A DNA stretch of 53,415 nt from a virus (IMGVR_UViG_3300032087_000658:1-53415), one strand, 5' to 3'. Positions 15,169 through 39,677 are shown, counted from the stretch's first letter. Notes: generated by a model from the sequence alone, not told the origin. Translations and numbers: made by a program.

Positions 15169-16206
15169 TTGAATAACTTAAACAACAACTACCCAACACT
15201 AACAAATAGAACATTTGGTCTTGAGTTAGAATTCGTTGGAGTATCACCTAGAACTGTAGCAGAGACTATCAACAACCTTGATGGTATTGAGTGTTACTTT
15301 GAAGGGTATCATCATACTACTAGACCATATTGGAAGATTGTTACAGATGCTTCTTTAGATGGAACTGGTGGTGAAATCGTTAGTCCAATACTAAAAGGTG
15401 TTGAGGGTGCTAAGCAATTAGAAACTATACTTAATGCCTTAGATAACTTAGAAGGTATTAGGGTTAATGTTCAATGCGGTTTGCATGTTCACCTTGATGT
15501 TAATGATCTCACAGTTGCAGAGATACAATCTGTTTATGAGAGATACGCTGACTATGAAAGCCAAATTGATATGGTTATGCCTAGAAGTCGTAGAGGTAAT
15601 AATTCTAGATGGTGTGCAAGTGTTACTAACACAGCTGGTAGAATCAAAAATGTAAGAGGTAGAACTAAATCTGCTCTTGCAAATGCAGCTGGTAGATATT
15701 ACAAAGTAAATTTACAAAGTCTAACTAGATACGGAACAATGGAGTTCAGACAACACAGTGGTACTCTTAACTTTGACAAGATTATTAACTGGGTTAGCTT
15801 CTTAATGGCTTTTGTTGAAAAAAGTGCAAAGCTTTCAAATCAAGTTAAAACTCCTAAAACAAACAGAGTTTACTCAACAGTAAGAAATGCAGTTGAAAAT
15901 GCTGGTTATACAATGGAGTGGAACAGAGGACATAACATTTGGACTGTAGAGAAAAATAACGAACATTTTGCTGCTTTTTCAAATCATACTTTAAACAGAC
16001 TATACAGCGGTAGCAGAGAGTCTAGCATTGACTTAAACATGTTGGTTGACCTTTTGATTGATAGAGGAATTTTAGATTGTGCATCACAAGCTAACTTCCA
16101 AAAACCAGTTGTTGTAGAAAGCAATGAGGTTGATAACGGATGGTTAGATGGTTGTGATAACAAAGTGCAGACATTTTACCAAGAAAGAGAATTAGAATTA
16201 AATTAA
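15169..16206 (+). CDS. Amidoligase family protein (TTG start)
   Basis: 345 aa, member of the Amidoligase_2 family (glutamine-synthetase-like COOH-NH2 ligases that form amide or isopeptide bonds using ATP). Seen: FGLELEFVG (16-24), the metal/ATP-binding stretch TDASLDGTGGEIVSP (59-73), CGLHVHLD (103-110) and a later MEFRQHSGTLN. The start is TTG: AAGGAG at 15157-15162 is 6 bases upstream and no ATG fits. It is paired with a gamma-glutamylcyclotransferase-like gene 14 bases downstream, a pairing described for amidoligases thought to modify proteins or make peptides. Substrate unknown; a cell-wall peptide, glutamate-containing metabolite or capsid/host protein are all possible. Confidence 0.85.
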   Translation: MNNLNNNYPTLTNRTFGLELEFVGVSPRTVAETINNLDGIECYFEGYHHTTRPYWKIVTDASLDGTGGEIVSPILKGVEGAKQLETILNALDNLEGIRVNVQCGLHVHLDVNDLTVAEIQSVYERYADYESQIDMVMPRSRRGNNSRWCASVTNTAGRIKNVRGRTKSALANAAGRYYKVNLQSLTRYGTMEFRQHSGTLNFDKIINWVSFLMAFVEKSAKLSNQVKTPKTNRVYSTVRNAVENAGYTMEWNRGHNIWTVEKNNEHFAAFSNHTLNRLYSGSRESSIDLNMLVDLLIDRGILDCASQANFQKPVVVESNEVDNGWLDGCDNKVQTFYQERELELN

Positions 16207-16220
16207 TATAAGGAGATAAT

Positions 16221-16703
16221 ATGAAAAAGAATATTCTAAAAATGAAACAGAAGCCTACAAAAAACATGCAGTATTTGTATGGTGCTTATGGTAGCAACAT
16301 GAACCTCATGCAAATGTCTACTAGATGCCCACATGCAAAACCAGTTGGCAGTGTTTTTGTAGAAGGCTTTGCATTGAAGTTTAGAGGTGTTGCTGATATT
16401 GAACACACTAAAGAATCAAGAGTGCCACTTGCTTTATGGCAGATTACAGATGCTTGTGAAGCTAGGCTAGATATATATGAGGGGTTTCCTAGTTTATATC
16501 GTAAACAAATTCTACAGATACCAGCTTTAAAAAATAAGTTTGGTACTGACAGGGTAATGGTTTACATTATGAACAGCAAAGATGTTTATCCACCATCTAG
16601 CCGATACTTAGAAGGTATTGCACAAGGTTACAATGACTTTGGTATTGATACTGATACTTTAATGTACGCAGTCAAAGATTCGTATAGTCAAACTAACATA
16701 TAA
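16221..16703 (+). CDS. Gamma-glutamylcyclotransferase-like protein
   Basis: 160 aa of the GGCT/AIG2-like fold. The ligand loop YGAYGSNM (20-27) and the likely catalytic Glu87 in ARLDIYEGFP are present. Such enzymes cleave gamma-glutamyl amide bonds with release of 5-oxoproline. Encoded 14 bases after the amidoligase, with AAGGAG before the ATG, so the two probably act on the same gamma-glutamyl-type linkage, one making it and the other removing it. The first 15 residues are basic and may start instead at a later Met. Confidence 0.8.
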   Translation: MKKNILKMKQKPTKNMQYLYGAYGSNMNLMQMSTRCPHAKPVGSVFVEGFALKFRGVADIEHTKESRVPLALWQITDACEARLDIYEGFPSLYRKQILQIPALKNKFGTDRVMVYIMNSKDVYPPSSRYLEGIAQGYNDFGIDTDTLMYAVKDSYSQTNI

Positions 16704-27825: not shown

Positions 27826-28033
27826 CAGAAGAATACATTATATTTAACCCAGCTAAAGTGCATAGACGATTTTTTTCATCTAGACCTTTTTCTGTGAGAT
27901 CATAATTTTGTCCATTAACTTTGATGTAACCATCTGTAATTAATGCAGTCAATAAATCACTAGGTATATCATCACCAAACATAACTGTTAATATGCCACC
28001 TAATCTTTTAGTTTGTGTTTTACTTAGTGCCAT
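27806..28033 (-). CDS. Small unknown protein after endolysin
   Basis: 75 aa with a winged-helix-like pattern (LLTALITDGYIKVNGQNYDLTEKGLDE). The start overlaps the endolysin stop by 1 base, making it the last gene of the lysis operon. Its end lies inside the opposing early-operon terminator. Function unknown; a late regulator is possible. Confidence 0.5.
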   Translation of the reverse strand: MALSKTQTKRLGGILTVMFGDDIPSDLLTALITDGYIKVNGQNYDLTEKGLDEKNRLCTLAGLNIMYSSEKKSST

Positions 28034-28476
28034 TAAACGTGTTCCCAGTCATTACCCTCAAATAATAATGATTCTGCTAATCTTCTTCTTGTTAATCCTT
28101 CAAGAACTTTGCCACCTGCTTTGTTCCATCGTTTCATCTGATAAGGCACATCTTCATACGCACCTTGATTTAAAACTTTTAACATAGTTGAAGCGTTTAA
28201 ATTTGCACCACCAAGATTAAATGTCCAAGATACTAATGCATCAAACTGGTGTTGATGTAATGGAAGCTTTACTGCTTTATTGACAGCATCTTCATAGACT
28301 ACTAAATCTTCTAGCAATAATTCTTCTGCACGTTCTTGTGATATGGTCATGCCCATTTGTATACCTTTAGTTGAACCATAACCAATGGTAGGTACATTAG
28401 CAGCACATAAATAACTTTCTAATTTGCACCCTTCAAACTTCTTGATAAGTGCGATTCCTTCTTGTGATATCTTCAT
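28033..28476 (-). CDS. Endolysin, glycoside hydrolase family 24 (T4-lysozyme type)
   Basis: 147 aa from the ATG at 28476, chosen because GGGGAGA is just upstream; the longer reading adds an unrelated N-terminus. It hydrolyses peptidoglycan at lysis. IALIKKFEGCKLESYLC and PTIGYGSTKGI give catalytic Glu15, with Cys24 and Thr30 at the positions of T4 lysozyme Asp20 and Thr26 (an E-C-T triad, found in many GH24 endolysins). SWTFNLGGANLNASTML and WNKAGGKVLEGLTRRR are typical later motifs. No signal-anchor sequence, so a holin should be needed. Confidence 0.92.
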   Translation of the reverse strand: MKISQEGIALIKKFEGCKLESYLCAANVPTIGYGSTKGIQMGMTISQERAEELLLEDLVVYEDAVNKAVKLPLHQHQFDALVSWTFNLGGANLNASTMLKVLNQGAYEDVPYQMKRWNKAGGKVLEGLTRRRLAESLLFEGNDWEHV

Positions 28477-28477
28477 A

Positions 28478-28873
28478 TTATTCTCCCCATGTTCCATCTT
28501 CTCGGACTTTGGCTTTCTTTGTGCCACCCCAGTATTCAACTGCGTGTCCTTCTTTAATAAGAATCTGACAAATGCTTTTATTATTTTCATCATAAGGTAT
28601 TCCCAGTATTCTTCCGTACTTGCCCTTTCCTAGTGATTGTACTTTGAAAGCACCAACACATAGTTCTATAAGTCTTTTTTTTGCTTTTAAACCTAGTGCT
28701 TTTTCTTCTAAATTTCTTGTGCGTGATTCAGGAGTATCTATCCCTGCTAATCGCACTCTTTGTTTATGGAGTTTGACATCAAAGCCTAAATCAAGAGTCA
28801 CATCTATGGTGTCTCCATCTATTACCCTTTCTAGTATAGCGTTGTATACGAATGGCGTGACCGATTCAGACAT
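28478..28873 (-). CDS. Thermonuclease-like (SNase) protein
   Basis: 131 aa of the staphylococcal nuclease fold: ILERVIDGDTIDVTLDLGFD, VRLAGIDTPESR (with catalytic Arg41 and Asp46), LGKGKYGRILGIPYDEN and EGHAVEYWGG. It may degrade host DNA or DNA released at lysis. No signal peptide, so it acts in the cytoplasm or as a virion-borne protein. It lies between the holin candidate and endolysin, with one base to the endolysin start, which is an unusual place for a nuclease. Confidence 0.85.
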   Translation of the reverse strand: MSESVTPFVYNAILERVIDGDTIDVTLDLGFDVKLHKQRVRLAGIDTPESRTRNLEEKALGLKAKKRLIELCVGAFKVQSLGKGKYGRILGIPYDENNKSICQILIKEGHAVEYWGGTKKAKVREDGTWGE

Positions 28874-29087: not shown

Positions 29088-29480
29088 TTATTTGTTCTCT
29101 GACACCTTTTCTTCTTCATTATCTTCTTTGTCATAATCTCTATAATATTTGATAATTGATAAAGTATCTCTTAAATATCTTTTAATTTCTGCCATATTCA
29201 TAGATAGGTTTTCGTACTCTTTACTGGTTAATGAATAATAAGCAATGGCAGGAGCAGAGCCATTCTCGTAATTTTCTAGGTACTCTTTCATTAAATCAGG
29301 AGTTAATATTTCCCAGTCAATATCAACCAATCCAACTTCTAGGGGTAAAGGTGGATGGTAAAGGGGGACTGGCTCTGCAATCGTTACGACCTCAACAGGT
29401 TTAGCAGTGGGCATCATAGAACAGTTTGCAATAACAAAAAGACATGATATTAATATTATGCTTTTAATTTTCATCATCAA
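29088..29480 (-). CDS. Outer-membrane spanin lipoprotein (o-spanin, Rz1-like)
   Basis: 130 aa. Signal peptide (KIKSIILISCLFVIANC) with the likely lipidated Cys20; the residue before it is Asn, not the usual Gly/Ala. A Pro-rich stretch follows (VPLYHPPLPLEVG), then VDIDWEILTPDLM and YYSLTSKEYENLSMNMAEIKRYL, seen in spanin-type proteins of many marine phages. It overlaps the i-spanin gene by 17 bases. The pair would fuse inner and outer membranes at the last step of lysis. Confidence 0.75.
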   Translation of the reverse strand: MMMKIKSIILISCLFVIANCSMMPTAKPVEVVTIAEPVPLYHPPLPLEVGLVDIDWEILTPDLMKEYLENYENGSAPAIAYYSLTSKEYENLSMNMAEIKRYLRDTLSIIKYYRDYDKEDNEEEKVSENK

Positions 29481-29859
29481 ACTGGTTTGGGTCTGTTAAA
29501 GCTATTATTTCTTCTTTGACTTTTTTAGTTCCCTTGTTCACAATATTTTCTATTAACTTAGGTTTGCTCAATGCTAAATTATCTAAATCATGTTTTGCAA
29601 AGGTTGTTCGTAGTTTGTTTACTTCTCTTACTGCTTCCTGTTTTTCTTTTTCTATTGCTTGTATCTGCTTTTGTGCCTTCTCTTGGTTGGCAAGATAAGT
29701 TTTAATTGATTCGTTTTGTTGTGCTATTGATTGTTCTAAGGCTATCTGATTGCCTTTTAAAGTAGAGATATTGTCTTGTAATCTATCAATATACCAAAAT
29801 GAACCACTAGCAGTAACTAGCAATAAACCACCTAGTATTATTGATAATTTGAATCCCAT
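29464..29859 (-). CDS. Inner-membrane spanin (i-spanin, Rz-like)
   Basis: 131 aa. One N-terminal transmembrane anchor (LSIILGGLLLVTASGSFWYI), then a long coiled coil of Gln/Lys/Glu repeats (EQSIAQQNESIKTYL, KAQKQIQAIEKEKQEAV), and a KHDLDNLALSKPKLIENIVN motif typical of phage Rz-like proteins. Located in the periplasm apart from the anchor. The ATG overlaps the cyclase stop by about 22 bases, which ties the cyclase to the lysis operon. Confidence 0.8.
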   Translation of the reverse strand: MGFKLSIILGGLLLVTASGSFWYIDRLQDNISTLKGNQIALEQSIAQQNESIKTYLANQEKAQKQIQAIEKEKQEAVREVNKLRTTFAKHDLDNLALSKPKLIENIVNKGTKKVKEEIIALTDPNQFDDEN

Positions 29860-31616
29860 GTATACACCTGTAATTTCTCGCTTTTACCTTTAGCTTCTAT
29901 TGGGTCTAAAGGTATCAAATCAAATTCTATCGCATTTTCTGTACTTTGACCAATTAGGAGATCAACACCAGCGTTTTTAGTTCCTGATTCTAATCTTGCT
30001 GCTACATTGACTGCATCACCGATAGCTGTGTAATCAAATCTATTTTCACTACCCATATTTCCTATAACCGCATATCCAGTGTTAATTCCTATGCCAATGG
30101 TTACTGGATTTATACCTTTGTCTGCTAAAACATAATTCAGTTCTATCATATTTTTTTGTATATCCATAGCACAAGCCAACGCCTTTGTTTCATGATTTTC
30201 TAAATCAAGGGGTGCATTAAAAATCGCCATCATGGCATCACCAATATATTTATCAACCATACCCCCATGCTTTTGTACTGCTTTTTGTTGAGCAGTAAGT
30301 GCTTGGTTCATAATGTAAGTCACCTGTTCAGGTTCTAGTGTTTCTGATAAAGCTGTAAACCCACGAACATCTGTAAATAAAAATGTTGCGTATCTTTTTT
30401 CTCCACCAAGTTTTAAAAGTTCAGGATTTTTTTGCAGTTGTTTTACTTGTCTTGGGTCTAAATAATGTTCAAATTGTTTCTTAATTTGTAATCTAAGTTT
30501 GTATTGTTCTCTAAATCTTAGATAAAAAGCTATAGAACCTGTAATAAACTGTGAGATCAATGTCCATGTTACATCTAACAAAATACCCCTGTGAATAAGT
30601 TCATATCCTGTATAAGCTGTTGATAACATTATTCCTAGACCTAATACTAAACCCCATGTTATGCCTAAAGTGTTCAATACAAGCCATATAAGGCTTACTG
30701 ATACAATAAATATAAGCATTTCTACAGCTAATGACCAATCAGGTATGTAAGGACTATCTTGTATTAAGATTGATTCTGCTAAAGCACTTTGTATTTTATG
30801 TGGTTCTAATAATCCAACTGGTGTTGCTATCTGTGGCATAACACCATTTGCTGTTACTCCTACAAATACAAACTTACCTGCTACATCCATTTCTTTTAAT
30901 GTAGTTTGTGGCGTATCTACCCAACTTATCCACTTACGACCAAGACTGTCTGTTTTTACTGGTGGTATTCCTCTAATTGATATTTCCTCTATACCATTAT
31001 CATTAGTTTTTATAATGTAAGTTCTAACATCAAATAATGCTTTGTATATTTGTGTACCGAATGATGGTATCCATTCTTTTTTAGGTGTGCTTACAAGTAG
31101 TGGGATTCTTCTAACAAGTTGGTCAACTTCGGTGGGAGCAATGGCTAATCCCTGTAATGTATTATCTGCTAGAGTGTTCAGGTTTTCCTTAACTCCCATA
31201 GATACTATACCATCAACATGGTTGCCTTTGACAACAGTACCAGTAGCTTTTGGGTATTTATTTTTGCCATCTTCAAACATTGCTATAACAGATGGTATGT
31301 ATCCCAAAGTCTTTGCAAAAACTTGATCTCCACCCATTCTATCTGCTTGTGGAAAAGATATTACCCAACCTACCCCTATAGCACCTGAATTAATAAGGTC
31401 TACTTGTATCTCTGCTAATCTTCTTCTTGGAAAAGGATAACCGCCTTCGTTTTCTACATCTTCTTCTGTGATGTTTAATATTACAAAGTTACCTGATGGC
31501 TCATATTTTTTTACAAAGGTATCAAAGGTTTTTAGTTTTAATATTTCAGTTGGTGTGCTTTGATATATAAAAGGTAAACATAAAATTAGTAGTATGGGTA
31601 TGAGCAATTTTTTCAT
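29838..31616 (-). CDS. CHASE2-sensor adenylate cyclase (class III)
   Basis: 592 aa. An N-terminal signal anchor (KKLLIPILLILCLPFIY) leads to a CHASE2 sensor (about 25-290), a periplasmic domain found only in signalling proteins. Three transmembrane segments follow (about 295-375) and then a cytoplasmic cyclase domain (412-590). Catalytic residues are all there: metal-binding Asp416 (FLFTDVRGFT) and Asp460 (DKYIGDAMM), adenine-specifying Lys456 and Thr530 (FDYTAIGD), and transition-state Asn537 and Arg541 (NVAARLE). The Lys/Thr pair fits class IIIb adenylate cyclases. It would make cAMP in response to a periplasmic signal. Full-length, not degraded. Between FecR and the spanin genes; no strong own promoter was seen. 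Confidence 0.93.
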   Translation of the reverse strand: MKKLLIPILLILCLPFIYQSTPTEILKLKTFDTFVKKYEPSGNFVILNITEEDVENEGGYPFPRRRLAEIQVDLINSGAIGVGWVISFPQADRMGGDQVFAKTLGYIPSVIAMFEDGKNKYPKATGTVVKGNHVDGIVSMGVKENLNTLADNTLQGLAIAPTEVDQLVRRIPLLVSTPKKEWIPSFGTQIYKALFDVRTYIIKTNDNGIEEISIRGIPPVKTDSLGRKWISWVDTPQTTLKEMDVAGKFVFVGVTANGVMPQIATPVGLLEPHKIQSALAESILIQDSPYIPDWSLAVEMLIFIVSVSLIWLVLNTLGITWGLVLGLGIMLSTAYTGYELIHRGILLDVTWTLISQFITGSIAFYLRFREQYKLRLQIKKQFEHYLDPRQVKQLQKNPELLKLGGEKRYATFLFTDVRGFTALSETLEPEQVTYIMNQALTAQQKAVQKHGGMVDKYIGDAMMAIFNAPLDLENHETKALACAMDIQKNMIELNYVLADKGINPVTIGIGINTGYAVIGNMGSENRFDYTAIGDAVNVAARLESGTKNAGVDLLIGQSTENAIEFDLIPLDPIEAKGKSEKLQVYTWDSNYQ

Positions 31617-31648
31617 AGATACATCATAACAGAAAAGTACAAAAAGGG

Positions 31649-31676
31649 TTGTTTATTACAAATAAATATCTATAAT
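31649..31676 (+). promoter_or_regulatory. Sigma70-like promoter P3 with operator half-site
   Basis: TTGTTT (31649-31654), 16-base spacer, perfect TATAAT (31671-31676): same boxes and spacing as P2. GGGTTGTTTATT is identical to P2 around the -35. The first half of the shared operator (TGTTTATT) is kept at 31650-31657, but the second arm is not. AAAGGAG at 31695-31701 serves the next gene. Confidence 0.75.
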
Positions 31677-31706
31677 TATATTTATATTAATTTGAAAGGA
31701 GATATT

Positions 31707-32195
31707 ATGAATATATTTGCAGTAGAACAATGCCCTGAACAAGCCGCTAGAGCTTTACCTGATAAACTGATAGTTAAAATGCCATTAGAAACAGCACAAA
31801 TGCTTTCTACGGCACACAGATATCTTAGTCCTACAGAGTATTGTGAAGAAAAAAACTTATACAAGAAAGCATATTACAACCATCCTTGCACTGTTTGGGC
31901 AAGAGAAACACATGAAAACTATAGATGGTTGCTAATACATTTTATAACTTTGTGCGAAGAATACTATTTGCGATATGGCAGAATACATGCTTCTTGGGAT
32001 AAATTATGGGATGGCTTAAAAATATTTCCAATGAATATTAAAGAAGGCAGCTTAACACCTTTTGCACAAGCTATGCCTGAACAATACAAAAACCCTGTTG
32101 ACCATATTGATGCATATCGTACATACATGATTGCAGAAAAGCATTATGCAAAATGGGAAAAAGGTAGAGACAAGCCTGTTTGGTGGTCTAATTAG
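31707..32195 (+). CDS. Conserved phage protein of unknown function, MNIF-type
   Basis: 162 aa from the ATG at 31707 with AAAGGAG upstream. Motifs: MNIFAVEQCPEQAARALPDK, LETAQMLSTAHRYL, NHPCTVWARETHENYRWLL, LTPFAQAMPEQYK, and an end with KWEKGRDKPVWW. I recognise this as a widespread phage protein in T4-like and T7-like marine phages with no agreed function; a resemblance to pyrimidine-dimer glycosylases has been suggested for layout only and I cannot confirm it. It is the only plus-strand gene in a 25-kb minus-strand block and has its own early-type promoter. Confidence 0.7.
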   Translation: MNIFAVEQCPEQAARALPDKLIVKMPLETAQMLSTAHRYLSPTEYCEEKNLYKKAYYNHPCTVWARETHENYRWLLIHFITLCEEYYLRYGRIHASWDKLWDGLKIFPMNIKEGSLTPFAQAMPEQYKNPVDHIDAYRTYMIAEKHYAKWEKGRDKPVWWSN

Positions 32196-33285
32196 ATTGT
32201 GTAATCTTTATTGTGCTACCCTCACCACCATTAATGGTAACAATGTTTGAAACACCATTTTGTATAAAGATAACAGTATAACTCGCACTTCCATCTATAT
32301 CTATTCTTGCTGAACTTTCTACACTTCGTAACAAAGTTAATTTTTCACCAGTATAGAAAGTTGTAATCTGTGTTTCTAAGTCTTGACCAAACTTTGTACC
32401 TTTAATGTTGGTTGTTATGGCATCTTGACCAAGCACATCTTCTTCTTTTGCAACTTCTAATGCATCTATAACATCTAGCAAATCTTCTAGGAAGTTGACA
32501 TCAAGATAGTTTATATCTAATTCTGTAAACTCTAATTCATCTTCTTTTAAAAAATCTTCTTCTAAGTAATCTATATCTAAATCATCAAAGTCTAAGATAT
32601 TTTTCTTCTGCACTACAGTTTCTTCACCTTCAATAATTTGTTCTTCAGGTGGTGTCACTATTAACATATTGTCTATGAGATCAAGCGTTAAATCTAAAAT
32701 TACTGGACGTGTTGGAGAATTTTCAAATACGGATACAGTTGTTGCTTCATAAGGTTTATTTAAAATAACACTACCTGTAGCTGTCATAACCTCTATTTCA
32801 CCACTAGATAAACCATATTTATCAGGTAAAAGAATTATAAGACTACGTCCAAGTTCATCTACAGTTGCTGTAAAGTCTGTTCCTCTAATGGCTATATTTG
32901 CTGTGGGTGTTTTAAGTTGTATGTTTTGTTTATCAATTTTGTTTAGATTGCCTGTAATAAACCTTGCTGTTCCTAATCCAAAGGTAAGAGCCATCTTTGA
33001 TTTAGATGGGTCAGGGTCATAGATATATTCGTCAATTAATAATTCAGAGTGTTCTGTTAATCTAACTGTTGAATCATCAAGAAAGGTAATAGCCATACGA
33101 CCATTAGTAGTTATGGCTTGATCATTACTTTGTATGCCGAGGTTTAATTCAGCTTGTAATGGTTCGTCTCTTAATATTCGTGCAACACCATTTAGTTCTG
33201 ATATATCACCTATATCAACAACCTGTTGCTGTTCCCCCATCGTTTTGAGTGATACAAATATTAGAGTTAGAAGTAGTAGTCTCAA
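32188..33285 (-). CDS. Secreted FecR-domain protein
   Basis: 365 aa. Short signal peptide (RLLLLTLIFVSLKTMG) and a FecR domain at about 40-170: GDISELNGVARILRDEP, NGRMAITFLDDSTVRLTEHS, LGTARFITGNL and the typical TPTANIAIRGTDFTATVDE. It is not the usual sigma-factor regulator with an inner-membrane segment; the whole protein is exported. The rest holds an acidic region of DLDIDYLEEDFL-like repeats and a beta-rich C-terminus. It overlaps the curlin-like gene by 71 bases. In bacteria, FecR proteins are often seen next to CHASE2 cyclases, so it may be the cyclase ligand; that link is inference. Confidence 0.82.
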   Translation of the reverse strand: MRLLLLTLIFVSLKTMGEQQQVVDIGDISELNGVARILRDEPLQAELNLGIQSNDQAITTNGRMAITFLDDSTVRLTEHSELLIDEYIYDPDPSKSKMALTFGLGTARFITGNLNKIDKQNIQLKTPTANIAIRGTDFTATVDELGRSLIILLPDKYGLSSGEIEVMTATGSVILNKPYEATTVSVFENSPTRPVILDLTLDLIDNMLIVTPPEEQIIEGEETVVQKKNILDFDDLDIDYLEEDFLKEDELEFTELDINYLDVNFLEDLLDVIDALEVAKEEDVLGQDAITTNIKGTKFGQDLETQITTFYTGEKLTLLRSVESSARIDIDGSASYTVIFIQNGVSNIVTINGGEGSTIKITQSN

Positions 33286-33949
33286 TTTTTAACCAATCCT
33301 TTGCAAGTGTTGATGATTGTATGATGTTAAATGTATTACTGCTACCATCTAAATCCATGTAAAAATATCCTGAATCAGATGATGTGTTTCCTGAATATCC
33401 ACTAGCTGTAAAGTTGATAGTGTTTGAACCACCATTAATATCTACAAAGTTAATAGCATTAGCATAATCAATATCAAAATTTAATTCATTAGAATCACCT
33501 AAGATTGTCCAGTCTAAATCAAGATAAGATGAATCAGCGTTTTCTGCTATTTCTAAATCAAATTCATTACTGCTTCCAGTAACATCTAAATATAGATTTA
33601 TGTAATCTGCACTTATAAGACCAGTGCTATTTAATAAGATATCCATAACATTACTATCACCATCAAACTCAAAGAACCCAGTAAAGTTATCACCATCAAT
33701 AGCATCTGACCTAAAGATATTGCTTGAACCAATCTGATTAATATCTAAAGTCATACTAATACCATCAAGGTCAAGAGCAGTCATAGTTCCTGATACAGCA
33801 GAACTACCACCAATGAGGTTAGAGCTACCAAGTTGTTCTAAATCTATGGAAGCAGTATTACCGCTTTGGTCTACATAAATTTCATTATCCGCGTATGTTT
33901 GCAATGCAGTCATCATCACAAACAGGCTCATTAATTTCATTTTCTTCAT
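33215..33949 (-). CDS. Curlin-repeat-like secreted protein
   Basis: 244 aa. Signal peptide with likely cleavage after TYA (residue 20). Then about seven imperfect units, each closing with G-[SDG]-S-N: residues 41-44, 74-77, 97-100, 125-128, 151-154, 173-176 and 202-205, spaced 22-33 residues. The first units (YVDQSGNTASIDLEQLGSSN and LDINQIGSSN) match the curlin repeat pattern with Gln and Asn at set positions; later ones lose the Gln and turn Asp-rich. It is probably a beta-solenoid protein secreted through the adjacent CsgG pore. No CsgA/CsgB gene otherwise. Two Cys near the end (232 and 244) may form a disulfide. Confidence 0.78.
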   Translation of the reverse strand: MKKMKLMSLFVMMTALQTYADNEIYVDQSGNTASIDLEQLGSSNLIGGSSAVSGTMTALDLDGISMTLDINQIGSSNIFRSDAIDGDNFTGFFEFDGDSNVMDILLNSTGLISADYINLYLDVTGSSNEFDLEIAENADSSYLDLDWTILGDSNELNFDIDYANAINFVDINGGSNTINFTASGYSGNTSSDSGYFYMDLDGSSNTFNIIQSSTLAKDWLKIETTTSNSNICITQNDGGTATGC

Positions 33950-34757
33950 ATTTCCAGTACCCTTTATCGTAACCGATAATAATAAGTTCTAATACAGCAC
34001 CTTCTATAGCTTTCATTAAGGCTATAGTAGTACTCTCGTTGCGTGAAACACCAAATTCCACTTCAACTAACTCAGTACCCATTTCTATGAATTTAAACAC
34101 ATCTTGTGACTGTCCATAGCTAAGTATTGTCTTACTAGACATTACTTCTACTAGTATTTCACCAGTAGCTACAGAAACCATTCTAAGGCTTACAGTGATT
34201 GTATCTTCACGATACTGCACACTAGAGCCTATTCCTAAATATCTTGCTCCTGCACCACCTGTGATTAGGTTACTATCATACGACACAACAGCACCTTCAA
34301 GCAATACACCTGCAAACAGCAAAGGCATTATAGTTTTTTTATCTTCTAATTCTTCTCTTGTACTTCTAATAATTTGTCTTTCTTTTGTTAAGTTATCTAA
34401 ACCAACTCTTTCAACAACTCTAAAAAATTCACCATTACTTGCGTGTTTTAATGCTCTTATTAATAGATTGCTTGGTGCTTGAGTTATAGCACTAGAAAAT
34501 AAAGCAAACTCACTGTTGCTCTTCCTTTGTCCTGTTTGGTCTGTAAAAGCAGTTGGATATACAGCAACTACTGGTTTTGTTTGTGGTGCTTGTACGTTTA
34601 ATAAATCCTGTGACTGTAAAGAAAAAATACTAGGCTTATCTTTGCTTTTATGTTGGAATCTTATCTGTTGCGTGTCCTCTATGACACTATTAATAGAACA
34701 ACTAGAAAGTAAAAGAACCAATAGGTAATGTGATCTCTGTAATATTGCCATCTGCAT
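33885..34757 (-). CDS. csgG-like: CsgG-like outer-membrane curli secretion lipoprotein
   Basis: 290 aa. Signal with lipobox LLSSC and lipidated Cys20. Matches E. coli CsgG along its length: VAVYPTAFTDQTGQRK, the constriction-loop region (NSEFALFSSAITQ, 81-93), RVVERVGLDNLTKERQIIR, LLFAGVLLEGAVVSYDSN, TGGAGARYLGIGSSVQYR, VNVSTGEIL-like VSVATGEIL, SSKTILSYGQ, and a last helix ending YDKGYWKY. CsgG forms a nonameric pore that exports unfolded curli subunits. By eye, the E. coli pore Tyr51/Asn55/Phe56 are Ser82/Leu86/Phe87 here, so the gate is changed. It overlaps csgF-like by 56 bases and the curlin-like gene by 65 bases. Confidence 0.93.
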   Translation of the reverse strand: MQMAILQRSHYLLVLLLSSCSINSVIEDTQQIRFQHKSKDKPSIFSLQSQDLLNVQAPQTKPVVAVYPTAFTDQTGQRKSNSEFALFSSAITQAPSNLLIRALKHASNGEFFRVVERVGLDNLTKERQIIRSTREELEDKKTIMPLLFAGVLLEGAVVSYDSNLITGGAGARYLGIGSSVQYREDTITVSLRMVSVATGEILVEVMSSKTILSYGQSQDVFKFIEMGTELVEVEFGVSRNESTTIALMKAIEGAVLELIIIGYDKGYWKYEENEINEPVCDDDCIANIRG

Positions 34758-35229
34758 CAGTTATTTTAAGTGTTATAAATTGTCCATCAGATGTGTATTC
34801 TATAGTATTACCTTCAAGTTCTATAGTACCTTCAGTTTGTGGGGTTTCACCGAAAAGATTATCTACAAGTTGTCTTGATAGTTGAGCATAGATACGTGAC
34901 TCTAAGTTACGCATAAATCTTGCAAGTGTGGTGTTCTCTTTATCTCTTTCTATTTGTTCTTGTAAGGCTTTAATCTCTTCTTTGATTGTCATCTTCCTAT
35001 TAAACTCTTGGTTTTCAATAGTCAAGTAATGTGAACTCGTGTTGATGCCACTAAAAGATGGTGATTTGAACTTATGAACTATTTGGTCTGCTTTTATGTT
35101 AATTACTAAAATACCAATCAATAAAATAAAACCAATAACTGTAACTGTGTAAGCAATTCTATTTTTACTTAATTCTTCTGCTTTACGTTGTTTTTTTGTC
35201 ATTTTTTTCTTAATCTTTTCTTTGGTCAT
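34702..35229 (-). CDS. csgF-like: CsgF-like curli accessory protein with N-terminal membrane segment
   Basis: 175 aa from the ATG at 35229; AAAGG lies upstream and a TTG six codons earlier is less likely. Residues 54-61 (FKSPSFSG) match the CsgF start FRNPNFGG, which plugs into the CsgG pore. Then RNLESRIYAQLSRQLVDNLFG and the beta end GQFITLKITDADGNITEITL follow the order of CsgF. Unlike E. coli CsgF, the protein has a basic cytoplasmic start and one membrane segment (about 25-44) with no clear cleavage site, so it may stay in the inner membrane and span the periplasm by the long helix at 78-112. Next gene is csgG-like. Confidence 0.82.
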   Translation of the reverse strand: MTKEKIKKKMTKKQRKAEELSKNRIAYTVTVIGFILLIGILVINIKADQIVHKFKSPSFSGINTSSHYLTIENQEFNRKMTIKEEIKALQEQIERDKENTTLARFMRNLESRIYAQLSRQLVDNLFGETPQTEGTIELEGNTIEYTSDGQFITLKITDADGNITEITLPIGSFTF

Positions 35230-35560
35230 CTCTATCCGCCTTTGCAATTTTACTGCTATCTATTAACTGTGGTACTCCTAAAATAGTTTTTATAAGGGTG
35301 TCTTGTCTTATGATTTCATTATCTAAGCTACGCACTCTATCAATTAATGCTACAAGTATTCCATGTTGTGAGTCAAGTTTTGTGCCTAATCGTTCTTCAA
35401 TAGCTGCTATCTGTGATTCTACTTTTTCATCAACATTATCAAGTTTGGTTTCCATGCCATCTACAATACGCATGATTAATTTATATATAAACCATCCTAA
35501 ACCAATTGCTGCTGCTATTGGAAAACCAACTTCTTGAATTACTTTTATTGCTGCATCCAT
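35210..35560 (-). CDS. Small membrane protein with coiled coil
   Basis: 116 aa. One N-terminal transmembrane segment (GFPIAAAIGLGWFIYKLI) then a long coiled coil (MRIVDGMETKLDNVDEKVE, AAIEERLGTKLDSQHGIL). Such proteins lie beside tail-fibre and lysis genes in many phages and are sometimes called holins or tail-associated membrane proteins. It overlaps the csgF-like gene by 20 bases. As it is encoded at the junction of tail and curli modules, either link is possible; the role is unknown. Confidence 0.55.
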   Translation of the reverse strand: MDAAIKVIQEVGFPIAAAIGLGWFIYKLIMRIVDGMETKLDNVDEKVESQIAAIEERLGTKLDSQHGILVALIDRVRSLDNEIIRQDTLIKTILGVPQLIDSSKIAKADRDDQRKD

Positions 35561-35562
35561 AA

Positions 35563-35907
35563 TTATTCAACTATAGGTGAAACTTCATCTGCTCCATAAA
35601 TTTGCCATGTAAAATACACGTCTAAATCATCTTCTGTAACTGTGTTTTTATACCATTCTATTACTTTAGCATTCGTTAAATTTTCTACTAATATAAAATC
35701 ACTTGGTAGACCATTATCTTGTATTGAATAAACTCCATCTAAAGATGAATACATTTTCTCAGTCATGGTTTGTGTATTGTCTGCTTGGTCAACAGCTGAT
35801 ACTTCTACACAAACATTTTTAACAATTTGCGTATCATCATTTTGACTTAGTGGCATAGTTGATATGCTGTCAAAAGTGTATGTGTAGTTAAAATTATGTA
35901 CTGCCAT
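35563..35907 (-). CDS. Unknown tail-region protein
   Basis: 114 aa, beta-rich with NYTYTFDSISTMPLSQND and a C-terminal acidic end. It resembles small phage proteins found after the tail tip gene, in which the start describes a beta hairpin and a W near residue 70-85 (VIEWYKNT). No function known. It is coupled to the tail tip gene (overlap of 1 base). Confidence 0.5.
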   Translation of the reverse strand: MAVHNFNYTYTFDSISTMPLSQNDDTQIVKNVCVEVSAVDQADNTQTMTEKMYSSLDGVYSIQDNGLPSDFILVENLTNAKVIEWYKNTVTEDDLDVYFTWQIYGADEVSPIVE

Positions 35908-38900
35908 TATATTTCTGAAAATTTGTAAAAACCTAGTTGTACATTGCTCAATTGTCTATTGTTACCATCGCCTTGTGCTAAAATATAAACACTTAAAGTT
36001 CTACTTGTACCACTTATTTTTCTAATCATAAAATCTTTTTGCACCATTTTATAAGTTGAGTCAAATCTATCTACACCTGACCATGTTTGTGCTTGACCTG
36101 AATTATACTGAGCATAACCCTGATTTGCTATTGGTAAATTTAATGCAAATAACTGGTCTACACCATATGCAAAATCATCTCTTAATTCAAAACTAAAACC
36201 TGTTCCATAAGTACCATCACCTGCAACAATAGATAGAGTTTTAACCTGTCCACTTCCTCCAAAAACTCTGCAAAAAATATGATATATACCTGTAGCTGTT
36301 CCAATATCTGCAACTTTTTTCAAACGCATTGTATTGCTCTGCCAAGAACCTATAGTAGAACCTGAAACTGTTTGTGCATCAAAATCAAGAGCTAAATCAG
36401 TAACATTAATTCTATCAGCAGTAATAGTGTTTGAAGCAATTTGTGTAGCTGTTATTGTGCCTGTGGCTATTTCTGTAGCTGTTACCTGTCCAGCAGCAAT
36501 TTTTGCTGTAGTTATTGCATCAGCATTGATTTTATCAGTAGTAATAGCATTAGATATAATTTTATCAGCAGTAATTGCGTTAGAAGCTATTTCTGTAGCA
36601 GTAATTGTTCCTGCTGTAATTTTAGCAGCAGTAACAGCATTGGCAGCAAGTTCATCAGTAGCAATTGCACCAGCAGCAATATTTGAAGCTGTGATTGTAT
36701 CTGTAGCTATTTGTGTTGAAGTGATAGTACCAGCAGCGATCTCACTAGCTGTTATTTGATTTGCTGCAATTTTTGCAGTGGTAATAGCATTAGCAGCAAT
36801 CTTATCTGTAGTAATAGCATCAGCAATAATCTTATTAGCTGTAACTGCATTTGTGGCTATGGTATCGGCAGTTATTGCACCTGCATTAATCTTTGCAGTC
36901 GTAATAGCGTTAGCAATAATTTTATCTGATGTGATTGCATTTGTTTGAATGTTATCAGCAACAATTGCGTTTGCAGCAACTTTATCAGCAGTCACAGCAT
37001 CAGCTGCTATTTTTACAGCAGTAATGGCGTTACTTGCAATAGTGTCAGCTGTAACAGCACCTGCGTTTATTTTTGCAGTCGTAATTGCATTTGCAGTTAT
37101 CTTTGCGGTTGTTATTGCATTATCACTTATTTTTGTACTAGTTATAGCATTAGCTGCAAGATTTGCAGTCTGAACAGCATTATCTGCAAGTTTTGCGTTT
37201 GTGACTGCATCTGTACCTAGTTTTGTATTTGTAATAGCACCTGTGGCAATTTTTGCTTCACTTATAGCATTTGCAACTATCTGTGCTGTATTTACTGCGT
37301 TATCAGCTATTTTGGCATTGGTAACAGCATCAACACCCAATTTTGCTTCTACGATAGCACCAGCAGCAATAACATCACCTTGTATAGCATCTACTGCTAT
37401 TTTTGCATTAGTAACTGCTTCAGATGCTAGTTTTACAGTTGTAATTGCACCATCTACTATTTCTCCTGCATCTACGTTTGTAAAACTACCTGTAGCTACA
37501 GAAGTAAATGCTGAATGTACGTCTGAATGATTTACAGACCTTGCCCAAAAATAATACGTTGTACCAGCAGTTAAACCATCTTGTGTTCCAAACAAAGTAC
37601 TAGTCTTTTTACCATTTTGCCCATAAATCGTTTCTACTAAATAAGTGTCATCTGTTGGTGTTGTATTTGATGTTCTTCTATAAATCTTAGTTGCCTTGAG
37701 ATCAGCACTAGTTGAATTTATCCAAGATACAACTATGTTAAATGCTTGTCCTGTTGATGCAGTTAAACTTGTTGGTACTGCTGGTGCATCTGTTGGTGCT
37801 GCTATTGTTATATTAACAACACTGGTATAAGCACTAGCTACACCATTTACGTCAATATGTCGTGCTTTTACGTTATAAGTTTTTCCAACTACAACATTAG
37901 GGAGAAGGGCTACAGCAACACCTTTTCCTACAGTAAAGTCAGATGTATATGCACCATCTGTACTTAGCTTATACGCCACCTCTGTAAGTGTGACCTTATC
38001 GCTAGAGTTGTTTGTCCACGTAGCTTTTATATCTACTTTGGTTGTAACACCATCTTTGTTTGTTTGTTGTGCTAGTGCTAAGTTTGATGGTGCTGTTACT
38101 GCATATGTACCAGTACCGACATCACTACCTTCTGATTGACCAGTTGTATAATCACTTGTAGCAAAATTAAATACACTAGATGCGACTTCTTTTAGTTCCA
38201 ACTGTGTAGCCATAACAGGAATATCACCATCTGTTATAACTTGCATATTAGTGGATATTACTTCAAAGACTTTTTGACTGTAACCCATTCTTTCGTTGGT
38301 TAAATATACCCAATCGTTAGGTTGTAGTCGCATATATTTTAAAGTTACTAAACAAGATATTGATGTGGTCTGTCTTTGACTTTTTAATGCTATTCTGCCT
38401 AATCTTTGTGCCATTGTATCTGTAACTGTAAATGGCAATTGTGATTCCATTTGTTTTACATAATTAGCAGTAGATTCGCCACTAGGTGTATCTGCATTAA
38501 GCATTGTAGTATCTTGGTGAACTTCAGCATCAGCTGCTACATATCCTTGTGTAGAGTCAACATATAAAGGTTTAACACTATTGAATAAATTACCTGAACT
38601 TGGGTTTGTTTGTATTTGTACATCATTTAATAAATCATCATCAGTAATAATTAATGATGGTGTTTGTGATGCACCTGCAAAAACATTAAATTTACCATTT
38701 ACATAAGAAACTTTACCTGCCATAGAACTAAGTATTGATTCTATAATTCCATTACCATTTGCACTAAAGTTAGTAAATCCGTTTGACGTGTATCTTTTTT
38801 CTGTTGTAGAACCATCTGCTAAAGTTACATTTTGTTCACAGATATTAGCAGCACTTGCAAAACCACCTGCATTTGTTGTGTCATTAATCTCATCATTAGT

Positions 38901-39677
38901 AGCTTTAATACCATATTGAGTGTTTGTTAAATAGTCTCTAATTTGTAAAGCTGGATTATCTGTCCAAACAGTTGTGTTAGTTCTTGGGTCATAACACTTT
39001 TTACCTTTTACTAAAAATGATATTGCTGGTATTCCACCACCAAATTTTTCAGCATCAAAAACCATTTGAATATATACGTATGCAACATCTTGAAACTTAT
39101 CTGATGTACCCATTGAACTTAATTGTGCATTCATAAAACCATCAACAGCAGTTTGACTACCATCTTTGTATGAATAACGCATTAATCTACCACTACCAAA
39201 ATTATTATCGTTTTCAGTATTTGTATATTCTGAATTTGTTACTGTGTAAACAGTAGAACCACTTATAGTGCTGGTGCTAGTACTCAAATCTATATCATTA
39301 ACACGAACAGATGTGAGTTCTTCTATTTCGTGTCCTGCAATTGCAACAACAAGATGCAATAAATAGTTGTCATTTCCAGTAGTTTCCATGTGGACTATTG
39401 TTCCACCTACACGACATTTACCATATATTATTTGTCGTGGTGCTACAGCTTCCCTTGTTGCAAACTTACTACCAAAATTACCAGCTGAAGCATCAATACC
39501 TTTTGATGTCATCTTGCCAATAACACCACCAATTAAGGTTGTTGCAAAAGTAAATGCTGCTGCTGCTGCTGCACCACTTAAACCAAAAGCAGTGTATGCT
39601 ATATCAATACGACCTGTAGTTACTACTATAAATACTACAAGTGCTGCAATGACTGCTTGTTTAATCTGTTTAGCCAT
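35907..39677 (-). CDS. Tail tip / receptor-binding protein (lambda J-like) with long repeat
   Basis: 1256 aa. The start has a hydrophobic stretch (AALVVFIVVTTGRIDIAYT) and GLSGAAAAAAFTFATTLIGG. The region ASAGNFGSKFATREAVAPRQ, IYGKCRVGGTIVHMETTGND and LLHLVVAIAGHEIEEL is the usual beginning of J/central tail proteins. Fibronectin-type parts follow (about 510-740: TAPSNLALAQQTNKDGVTT, VPTSLTASTGQAFNIVVSW). Then about 35 copies of a 10-residue AITTAKIAAN repeat (about 740-1110) and a C-terminal globular domain. It probably forms the trimeric tail tip with a long stalk. Overlaps the NlpC-like gene by 8 bases. Confidence 0.85.
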   Translation of the reverse strand: MAKQIKQAVIAALVVFIVVTTGRIDIAYTAFGLSGAAAAAAFTFATTLIGGVIGKMTSKGIDASAGNFGSKFATREAVAPRQIIYGKCRVGGTIVHMETTGNDNYLLHLVVAIAGHEIEELTSVRVNDIDLSTSTSTISGSTVYTVTNSEYTNTENDNNFGSGRLMRYSYKDGSQTAVDGFMNAQLSSMGTSDKFQDVAYVYIQMVFDAEKFGGGIPAISFLVKGKKCYDPRTNTTVWTDNPALQIRDYLTNTQYGIKATNDEINDTTNAGGFASAANICEQNVTLADGSTTEKRYTSNGFTNFSANGNGIIESILSSMAGKVSYVNGKFNVFAGASQTPSLIITDDDLLNDVQIQTNPSSGNLFNSVKPLYVDSTQGYVAADAEVHQDTTMLNADTPSGESTANYVKQMESQLPFTVTDTMAQRLGRIALKSQRQTTSISCLVTLKYMRLQPNDWVYLTNERMGYSQKVFEVISTNMQVITDGDIPVMATQLELKEVASSVFNFATSDYTTGQSEGSDVGTGTYAVTAPSNLALAQQTNKDGVTTKVDIKATWTNNSSDKVTLTEVAYKLSTDGAYTSDFTVGKGVAVALLPNVVVGKTYNVKARHIDVNGVASAYTSVVNITIAAPTDAPAVPTSLTASTGQAFNIVVSWINSTSADLKATKIYRRTSNTTPTDDTYLVETIYGQNGKKTSTLFGTQDGLTAGTTYYFWARSVNHSDVHSAFTSVATGSFTNVDAGEIVDGAITTVKLASEAVTNAKIAVDAIQGDVIAAGAIVEAKLGVDAVTNAKIADNAVNTAQIVANAISEAKIATGAITNTKLGTDAVTNAKLADNAVQTANLAANAITSTKISDNAITTAKITANAITTAKINAGAVTADTIASNAITAVKIAADAVTADKVAANAIVADNIQTNAITSDKIIANAITTAKINAGAITADTIATNAVTANKIIADAITTDKIAANAITTAKIAANQITASEIAAGTITSTQIATDTITASNIAAGAIATDELAANAVTAAKITAGTITATEIASNAITADKIISNAITTDKINADAITTAKIAAGQVTATEIATGTITATQIASNTITADRINVTDLALDFDAQTVSGSTIGSWQSNTMRLKKVADIGTATGIYHIFCRVFGGSGQVKTLSIVAGDGTYGTGFSFELRDDFAYGVDQLFALNLPIANQGYAQYNSGQAQTWSGVDRFDSTYKMVQKDFMIRKISGTSRTLSVYILAQGDGNNRQLSNVQLGFYKFSEI
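36380..37470 (-). repeat. 10-codon tandem repeat in the tail tip gene
   Basis: About 35 in-frame copies of a roughly 30-bp unit encoding [AT]-[VI]-T-[ATS]-[ADT]-K-I-x-A-[ND]. Copies vary in sequence, showing purifying selection on the protein. Similar shorter arrays (DGxVTSAKLDTNI) occur in the fibre genes at 93-6908, 47025-48989 and 48991-51765. It likely forms a rod-like stalk. Confidence 0.8.

Follow-up and report, generated by a model that had tools for sequence, protein, structure and literature searches.

A curli-type secretion unit in a marine siphovirus: its parts, its maintenance and a probable role at the surface of the infected cell

Curli pores of the CsgG family, together with the collar protein CsgF, export amyloid subunits across the outer membrane, which raises the question of why a phage should carry genes for such a pore and what it would export. 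The question is posed by a viral DNA of 53,415 nucleotides (the window, to which all coordinates below refer unless a locus is named), in which a sequence-only reading had recognised CsgG, CsgF and a curlin-like substrate. That reading also raised the possibility that csgG-like genes had been noticed before in marine viruses, which is correct. Clusters of csgF and csgG were described in pelagimyophages (Zaragoza-Solas et al. 2020, PMC7029224), and podophages of the HTVC023P type, as well as myophages, were found to carry a set in the order 'HK'-CsgF-CsgG-CsgA/B-FecR-cyclase (Wittmers et al. 2022, PMC9599517). The Methylophilales phage Melnitz carries a curli pore, for which its authors proposed a role in lysis, in a set that they called incomplete, and they observed no clumping in culture (Buchholz et al. 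2022, PMC9004378). Furthermore, csgA/G/F-like genes occur in a putative marine Bacteroidetes virus (PMC7198788). The literature that we searched contained no experiment on any phage-encoded T8SS and no earlier report of a siphovirus as carrier of the module, the latter with the proviso that a report may have escaped the search. While the kind of module is already published, the siphovirus carrier, a corrected list of its parts and an alternative cassette in sister phages are new here; they add a third type of tail to those with which this trait of ocean phages is known, and provide a sharper parts list for reconstitution.

Layout and maintenance of the unit

The genes of the region are the following:

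28033..28593, minus strand: endolysin (phrog_7 endolysin, 3.1e-61)
29088..29480, minus strand: outer-membrane spanin, an Rz1-like lipoprotein (phrog_812 Rz-like spanin, 4.7e-15)
29464..29859, minus strand: inner-membrane spanin, Rz-like (phrog_739 Rz-like spanin, 6.6e-13)
29838..31616, minus strand: CHASE2 sensor with class III adenylate cyclase (PF05226, 1.4e-23; PF00211, 1.9e-20)
31692..32195, plus strand: pyrimidine-dimer glycosylase (PF03013, 9.6e-10), between the FecR and cyclase genes and opposite to them
32188..33285, minus strand: secreted FecR-domain protein, putative TTG start (PF04773, 5e-10; C-terminus ...IKITQSN)
33215..33949, minus strand: curlin-like secreted repeat protein (CsgA/B-like), 244 aa, with signal peptide (repeats; homologue in Melnitz)
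33885..34757, minus strand: CsgG, outer-membrane pore lipoprotein, 290 aa (PF03783, 1.4e-49; PDB chains; lipobox)
34702..35229, minus strand: CsgF, ATG at 35229 (PF10614, 3.5e-18; FxxPxFxG)
35210..35560, minus strand: TMcc, 116 aa, one N-terminal hydrophobic segment and then a coiled coil
35563-35907: small gene between TMcc and the J-like tail tip gene
35907..39677, minus strand: J-like tail tip protein (phrog_5616, 1.9e-73; phrog_31, central tail fiber J, 1.2e-56), upstream boundary of the slot

Six genes on the minus strand, TMcc-CsgF-CsgG-repeat protein-FecR protein-CHASE2 adenylate cyclase, constitute a curli-type unit at 29838-35560, which lies between a siphovirus tail-tip gene on one side and the spanins and endolysin on the other. 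The extent first assigned to the module, 33215-35229, covered its three central genes correctly and missed TMcc, the FecR protein, the cyclase and the adjoining spanins. As that reading had stated, CsgF, CsgG and the repeat protein overlap one another (CsgF/CsgG by 56 nt, CsgG/repeat protein by 65 nt), and the repeat protein gene overlaps that of the FecR protein by 71 nt; the additional claim of an overlap with the tail genes was wrong, since CsgF overlaps TMcc and a further small gene precedes the J-like tail tip gene. The pyrimidine-dimer glycosylase is outside the curli module; it occupies the position of the second curlin gene of HTVC008M and Melnitz, and was found near CsgG in only one other locus (L019) of the first set of loci examined. 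Rfam gave no match, and scans for promoters and terminators returned hits at chance level only.

The carrier encodes a terminase, portal, HK97-type capsid, head-tail adaptor, head closure and neck protein, followed among the tail genes by a tail terminator, tail tube, tape measure, distal tail (Dit), NlpC-type and J-like protein, and the block between adaptor and tape measure contains no large gene of the size of a sheath. Judged by gene content, this is the layout of a siphovirus, a marine long-tailed phage. By structural genes, its closest relatives in the phage collection are distant and scattered, and no integrase was recognised among the ORFs scanned. Elsewhere in the window (15169-16703, plus strand), an amidoligase gene stands next to a gamma-glutamyl cyclotransferase gene, possibly as a gamma-glutamyl pair.

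The order of the unit is strictly maintained. TMcc-CsgF-CsgG-repeat protein-FecR is kept in all 45 distinct CsgG loci whose flanks are long enough to judge, and the cyclase in 42 of them, being absent from the other three; as these loci were gathered mostly through the module genes themselves, the counts say how constant the module is, not how common it is in nature. Likewise, in IMG/VR loci long enough to judge, CsgF comes after TMcc in 111/111, and FecR lies upstream of the cyclase in 51/51. Relatives of TMcc, of the FecR protein and of the full-length cyclase occur in the same 6 of 50,697 phage records, every one of which carries CsgG. Pairwise dN/dS values of the module genes range from 0.04 to 0.37, about 0.05 for TMcc and 0.07-0.12 for the repeat protein, well below 1 for all six, and hence the genes are maintained, all of them under purifying selection. 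The description of these genes as resident phage genes agrees with the order held in 45/45 loci, and the search for the same gene order in marine phages, which had been suggested as a check, found it there as well as in the published sets. In the CsgG tree the myophage and small-phage clades are separate, with morphotype labels that are too loose for counting transfers.

The unit corresponds in genes and order to the pelagiphage T8SS module, i.e. a small 'HK' gene, CsgF-CsgG-CsgA/B, FecR and adenylate cyclase, but the pelagiphage carriers in those papers are podo- or myoviruses. HTVC008M shares 44% identity with the CsgG and 33% with the cyclase of the window; Melnitz has a 39% identical CsgG and the same six-gene order with TMcc in two copies; and the second curlin gene of both phages is absent here. 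Although the Melnitz set was called incomplete, a repeat-protein substrate is present here, and its Melnitz homologue itself scores 26.0 bits, above the Curlin_rpt cut-off.

With E. coli curli the phage unit has in common the CsgG family by sequence, the FxxPxFxG of CsgF and the Q/G/N repeat style of the substrate, whereas FecR, cyclase and TMcc are extras relative to csgBAC-csgDEFG, and none of the E. coli partners CsgE, CsgC and CsgD was recognised among the module genes. The phage CsgG scores 166.7 bits against an NCBIfam equivalog cut-off of 505 bits. In a pairwise alignment, which has a gap at this place, the residues Y51 and N55 of the E. coli CsgG constriction correspond to Asn and Leu, respectively, and F56 to Phe. 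The possibility that FecR and cyclase are parts of bacterial curli operons was rejected, as no relative of FecR, cyclase or TMcc was found near csgGF in three chromosomal loci. CsgF is rare in Alphaproteobacteria: 4/289 genomes exceed the cut-off, and for one of these the match is probably to phage DNA within a MAG. CsgG matches in six contigs from bacterial MAGs (L085, L086, L087, L088, L090 and L091) belong to a phage-type module, mostly with TMcc and in some cases with lysis genes; these are probably phage contigs that were binned into MAGs.

The proteins of the unit

CsgG and CsgF were both identified correctly from the sequence, and in profile searches both are far above the Pfam cut-offs. 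CsgG scores 168.7 bits against a cut-off of 20.8 for PF03783, covers profile positions 4-208 of 210, matches PDB CsgG chains over residues 49-272 (2.5e-43), and carries the lipobox LSSC with Cys20, which is nearly invariant in 15 homologues. CsgF scores 66.5 bits against 25.8 for PF10614, and its motif, F54-x-x-P57-x-F59-x-G61, is invariant in 14 aligned phage CsgFs. The N-terminus of CsgF consists of a Lys-rich n-region and a hydrophobic segment, after which the mature protein starts with DQIVHKFKSPSFSG; a sequence search of the PDB matched no CsgF chain.

The third protein had been described as a secreted protein with curlin-type repeats. Its signal peptide and repeats are borne out, but it stays below the family threshold: Pfam at its cut-offs lists no family, and a direct search against PF07012 gave 16 bits (E 9.3e-4) where 20.7 are required. 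On the other hand, it contains 7 [GT][SDG]SN pivots, where 20,000 shuffles averaged 0.21 and never exceeded 3, and its homologue in Melnitz passes the cut-off. So do both second curlins, that of HTVC008M and that of Melnitz. The AF2 model is all-beta (mean pLDDT 74.8) and matched no PDB fold at E<=0.001; a pair of C-terminal Cys is invariant in the close family. In the second curlin of the Pelagibacter phage HTVC008M (gp018, L082:10561-11886), the curlin repeats are preceded by a PA14 domain, as would suit an adhesive role.

The FecR protein begins with a signal-like hydrophobic segment, has the FecR domain as its sole Pfam match, and has no FecI/FecA-type partner, since the scanned ORFs include neither a sigma factor nor a receptor. 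It is therefore read as a Sec-exported protein and not an anti-sigma regulator, and the iron-regulator label is unsupported here. Its end follows a pattern, [ILVF]x[ILVF]xQx(0-3), that is present in 67/67 phage FecR homologues, which are related and hence do not amount to 67 independent events, in 2/464 other ORFs, one of these a curlin, and in 0/14 complete bacterial FecR-domain ORFs. Homology between the FecR C-terminus and the repeat protein is not supported by profile comparison (hhalign probability 1.5%), and a Pfam search of FecR C-termini detected no curlin repeat, so that the curlin-like ending is only a lead. The AF2 model of the protein, with a mean pLDDT of 33.5, is too poor for interpretation. 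Many alphaproteobacterial FecR-domain matches (L113-L141) lie in very large ORFs of 600 to 6,679 aa, which suggests that the domain often belongs to large surface proteins and not to iron regulators.

TMcc appears, from its matching place and copy number, to be the gene called 'histidine kinase (HK)' in the pelagiphage literature. No kinase domain (HisKA/HATPase) was found in it with Pfam or NCBIfam, and the one common His is present in 36/45 sequences and absent from the other rows, including those of HTVC008M and Melnitz; the kinase label thus appears to be unsupported for what is predicted to be a membrane coiled-coil protein. Uncorrected, this label and the iron-regulator label could have misdirected experiments. 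A match to phrog_1296 at 0.006 would suggest TMcc as a general holin; this reading was set aside because TMcc occurs only with the module.

The CHASE2 adenylate cyclase retains the catalytic residues of class III enzymes, that is, the two metal-binding Asp, the Lys/Asp adenine pair and the transition-state Asn/Arg (D, K, D, D, N, R), which are present in 63-65 of 65 homologues.

A different cassette between the same flanks

We compared 29 relatives that have the J-like gene and at least 2.5 kb downstream of it. CsgG is present in 25; one ends within the unit; and in the remaining three (L376, L381 and L410) all module genes are absent together and a different gene set stands between the same flanks:

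L381:13621-18386: alternative cassette
L376:8115-12967: alternative cassette
L410:2822-7674: alternative cassette

This cassette encodes an Asn/Thr-rich secreted protein of ~370 aa, a secreted protein of 744 aa, a membrane coiled-coil protein and a 67-aa lipoprotein, for which no known family was found and no pore family recognised, and the phages that have it keep the same lysis genes. The 744-aa protein had no match in the 50,697 phage records, and a search with it yielded about 70 loci. None of 71 alternative loci, some of which are overlapping stretches of one contig, contains a T8SS gene, and no T8SS locus contains the four alternative genes. Among long records, which may be incomplete, CsgG is absent from 10/10 with the alternative cassette, and the 744-aa protein from 16/16 with the T8SS. 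Both cassettes are found with a short membrane protein, ALT_TM, encoded next to the slot. The replacement of the whole unit by a cassette of predicted secreted proteins fits a slot for surface cargo, and phages that differ in this cassette lend themselves to comparison.

Surface display and its alternatives

We consider it likely, with a probability of about 0.7, that the siphovirus T8SS unit is a late cargo by which the infected cell comes to show the repeat protein on its surface, as a curli-like layer or fibre, ahead of lysis. In such a scheme the outer membrane would be crossed by a CsgG pore with CsgF as its collar; through this pore the repeat protein, after export by Sec, and possibly the FecR protein as well, would travel to build an adhesive layer or fibre; TMcc would serve as a dedicated inner-membrane partner; and the cyclase would be an accessory that makes cAMP on a periplasmic signal, perhaps the state of export. 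The phage might benefit through clumping near fresh hosts or through blocking of superinfection. The location of the unit between tail and lysis genes fits late expression, and the constant company of a substrate-like protein with CsgG, TMcc, CsgF and FecR in every one of the 45 loci supports display. Display is further favoured by the purifying selection on that protein, by the second curlins of HTVC008M and Melnitz that exceed the Curlin_rpt cut-off, and by the intact cyclase residues. It is disfavoured by the score of the window's own repeat protein below that cut-off and by its AF2 model, which matched no solved fold at E<=0.001, by the lack of recognised CsgE, CsgC and CsgD among the module genes, and by the absence of clumping in Melnitz cultures. 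The earlier proposal, display of a protein by the phage on the surface of the infected cell, is accordingly the best-supported one, except that its option of aiding release is weakened by the separate endolysin and spanin pair.

More tentatively, and with rather less than even expectation, marine tailed phages might possess a dedicated late cell-surface slot that takes at least two unrelated secreted-protein cassettes, with FecR as a fibre component or nucleator of the curli-type one; each cassette would remodel the dying cell's surface with a chemistry of its own. If both act on the cell surface, display gains over a pore for lysis.

Such a lysis pore, with CsgG/CsgF turned into a pinholin or release channel of the outer membrane that sets the timing of lysis or aids it, is the strongest of the alternatives and still an unlikely one. 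The proposal and its reasoning come from the Melnitz study (PMC9004378), and the direct contact of the unit with the spanins in 28/45 loci speaks for it. It is made less likely by the Rz/Rz1 spanin pair and endolysin that the phage already has, and by the repeat protein and FecR, which are never lost (45/45) and which use as a pore alone leaves unexplained; furthermore, sister phages exchange the unit for a cassette in which no pore family is recognised and retain their lysis genes. A pore for the uptake of large nutrients or cofactors during infection, as proposed in the literature (PMC7029224, PMC9599517), would agree with the lack of a recognised CsgE gate among the module genes, but we regard it as quite improbable, since it leaves the repeat protein without explanation, and since the idea of iron arose from an anti-sigma architecture that is missing from this 'FecR'. 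Slightly less credible still are the repeat protein and FecR as tail components of the virion: both genes lie downstream of the J-like tail-tip region, yet the signal-like N-terminal segments and the CsgG lipobox indicate the cell envelope, and in the myophages HTVC008M and Melnitz the set adjoins genes of the replication region and not the tail tip. That the unit is a relic or decorative host cargo without function is extremely improbable, for although the known hosts of related phages have no curli genes (PMC9599517, PMC9004378), all six genes show the low dN/dS given above, the gene order is intact throughout the 45 loci, and metatranscriptomes contain transcripts of the pelagiphage T8SS genes (PMC9599517).
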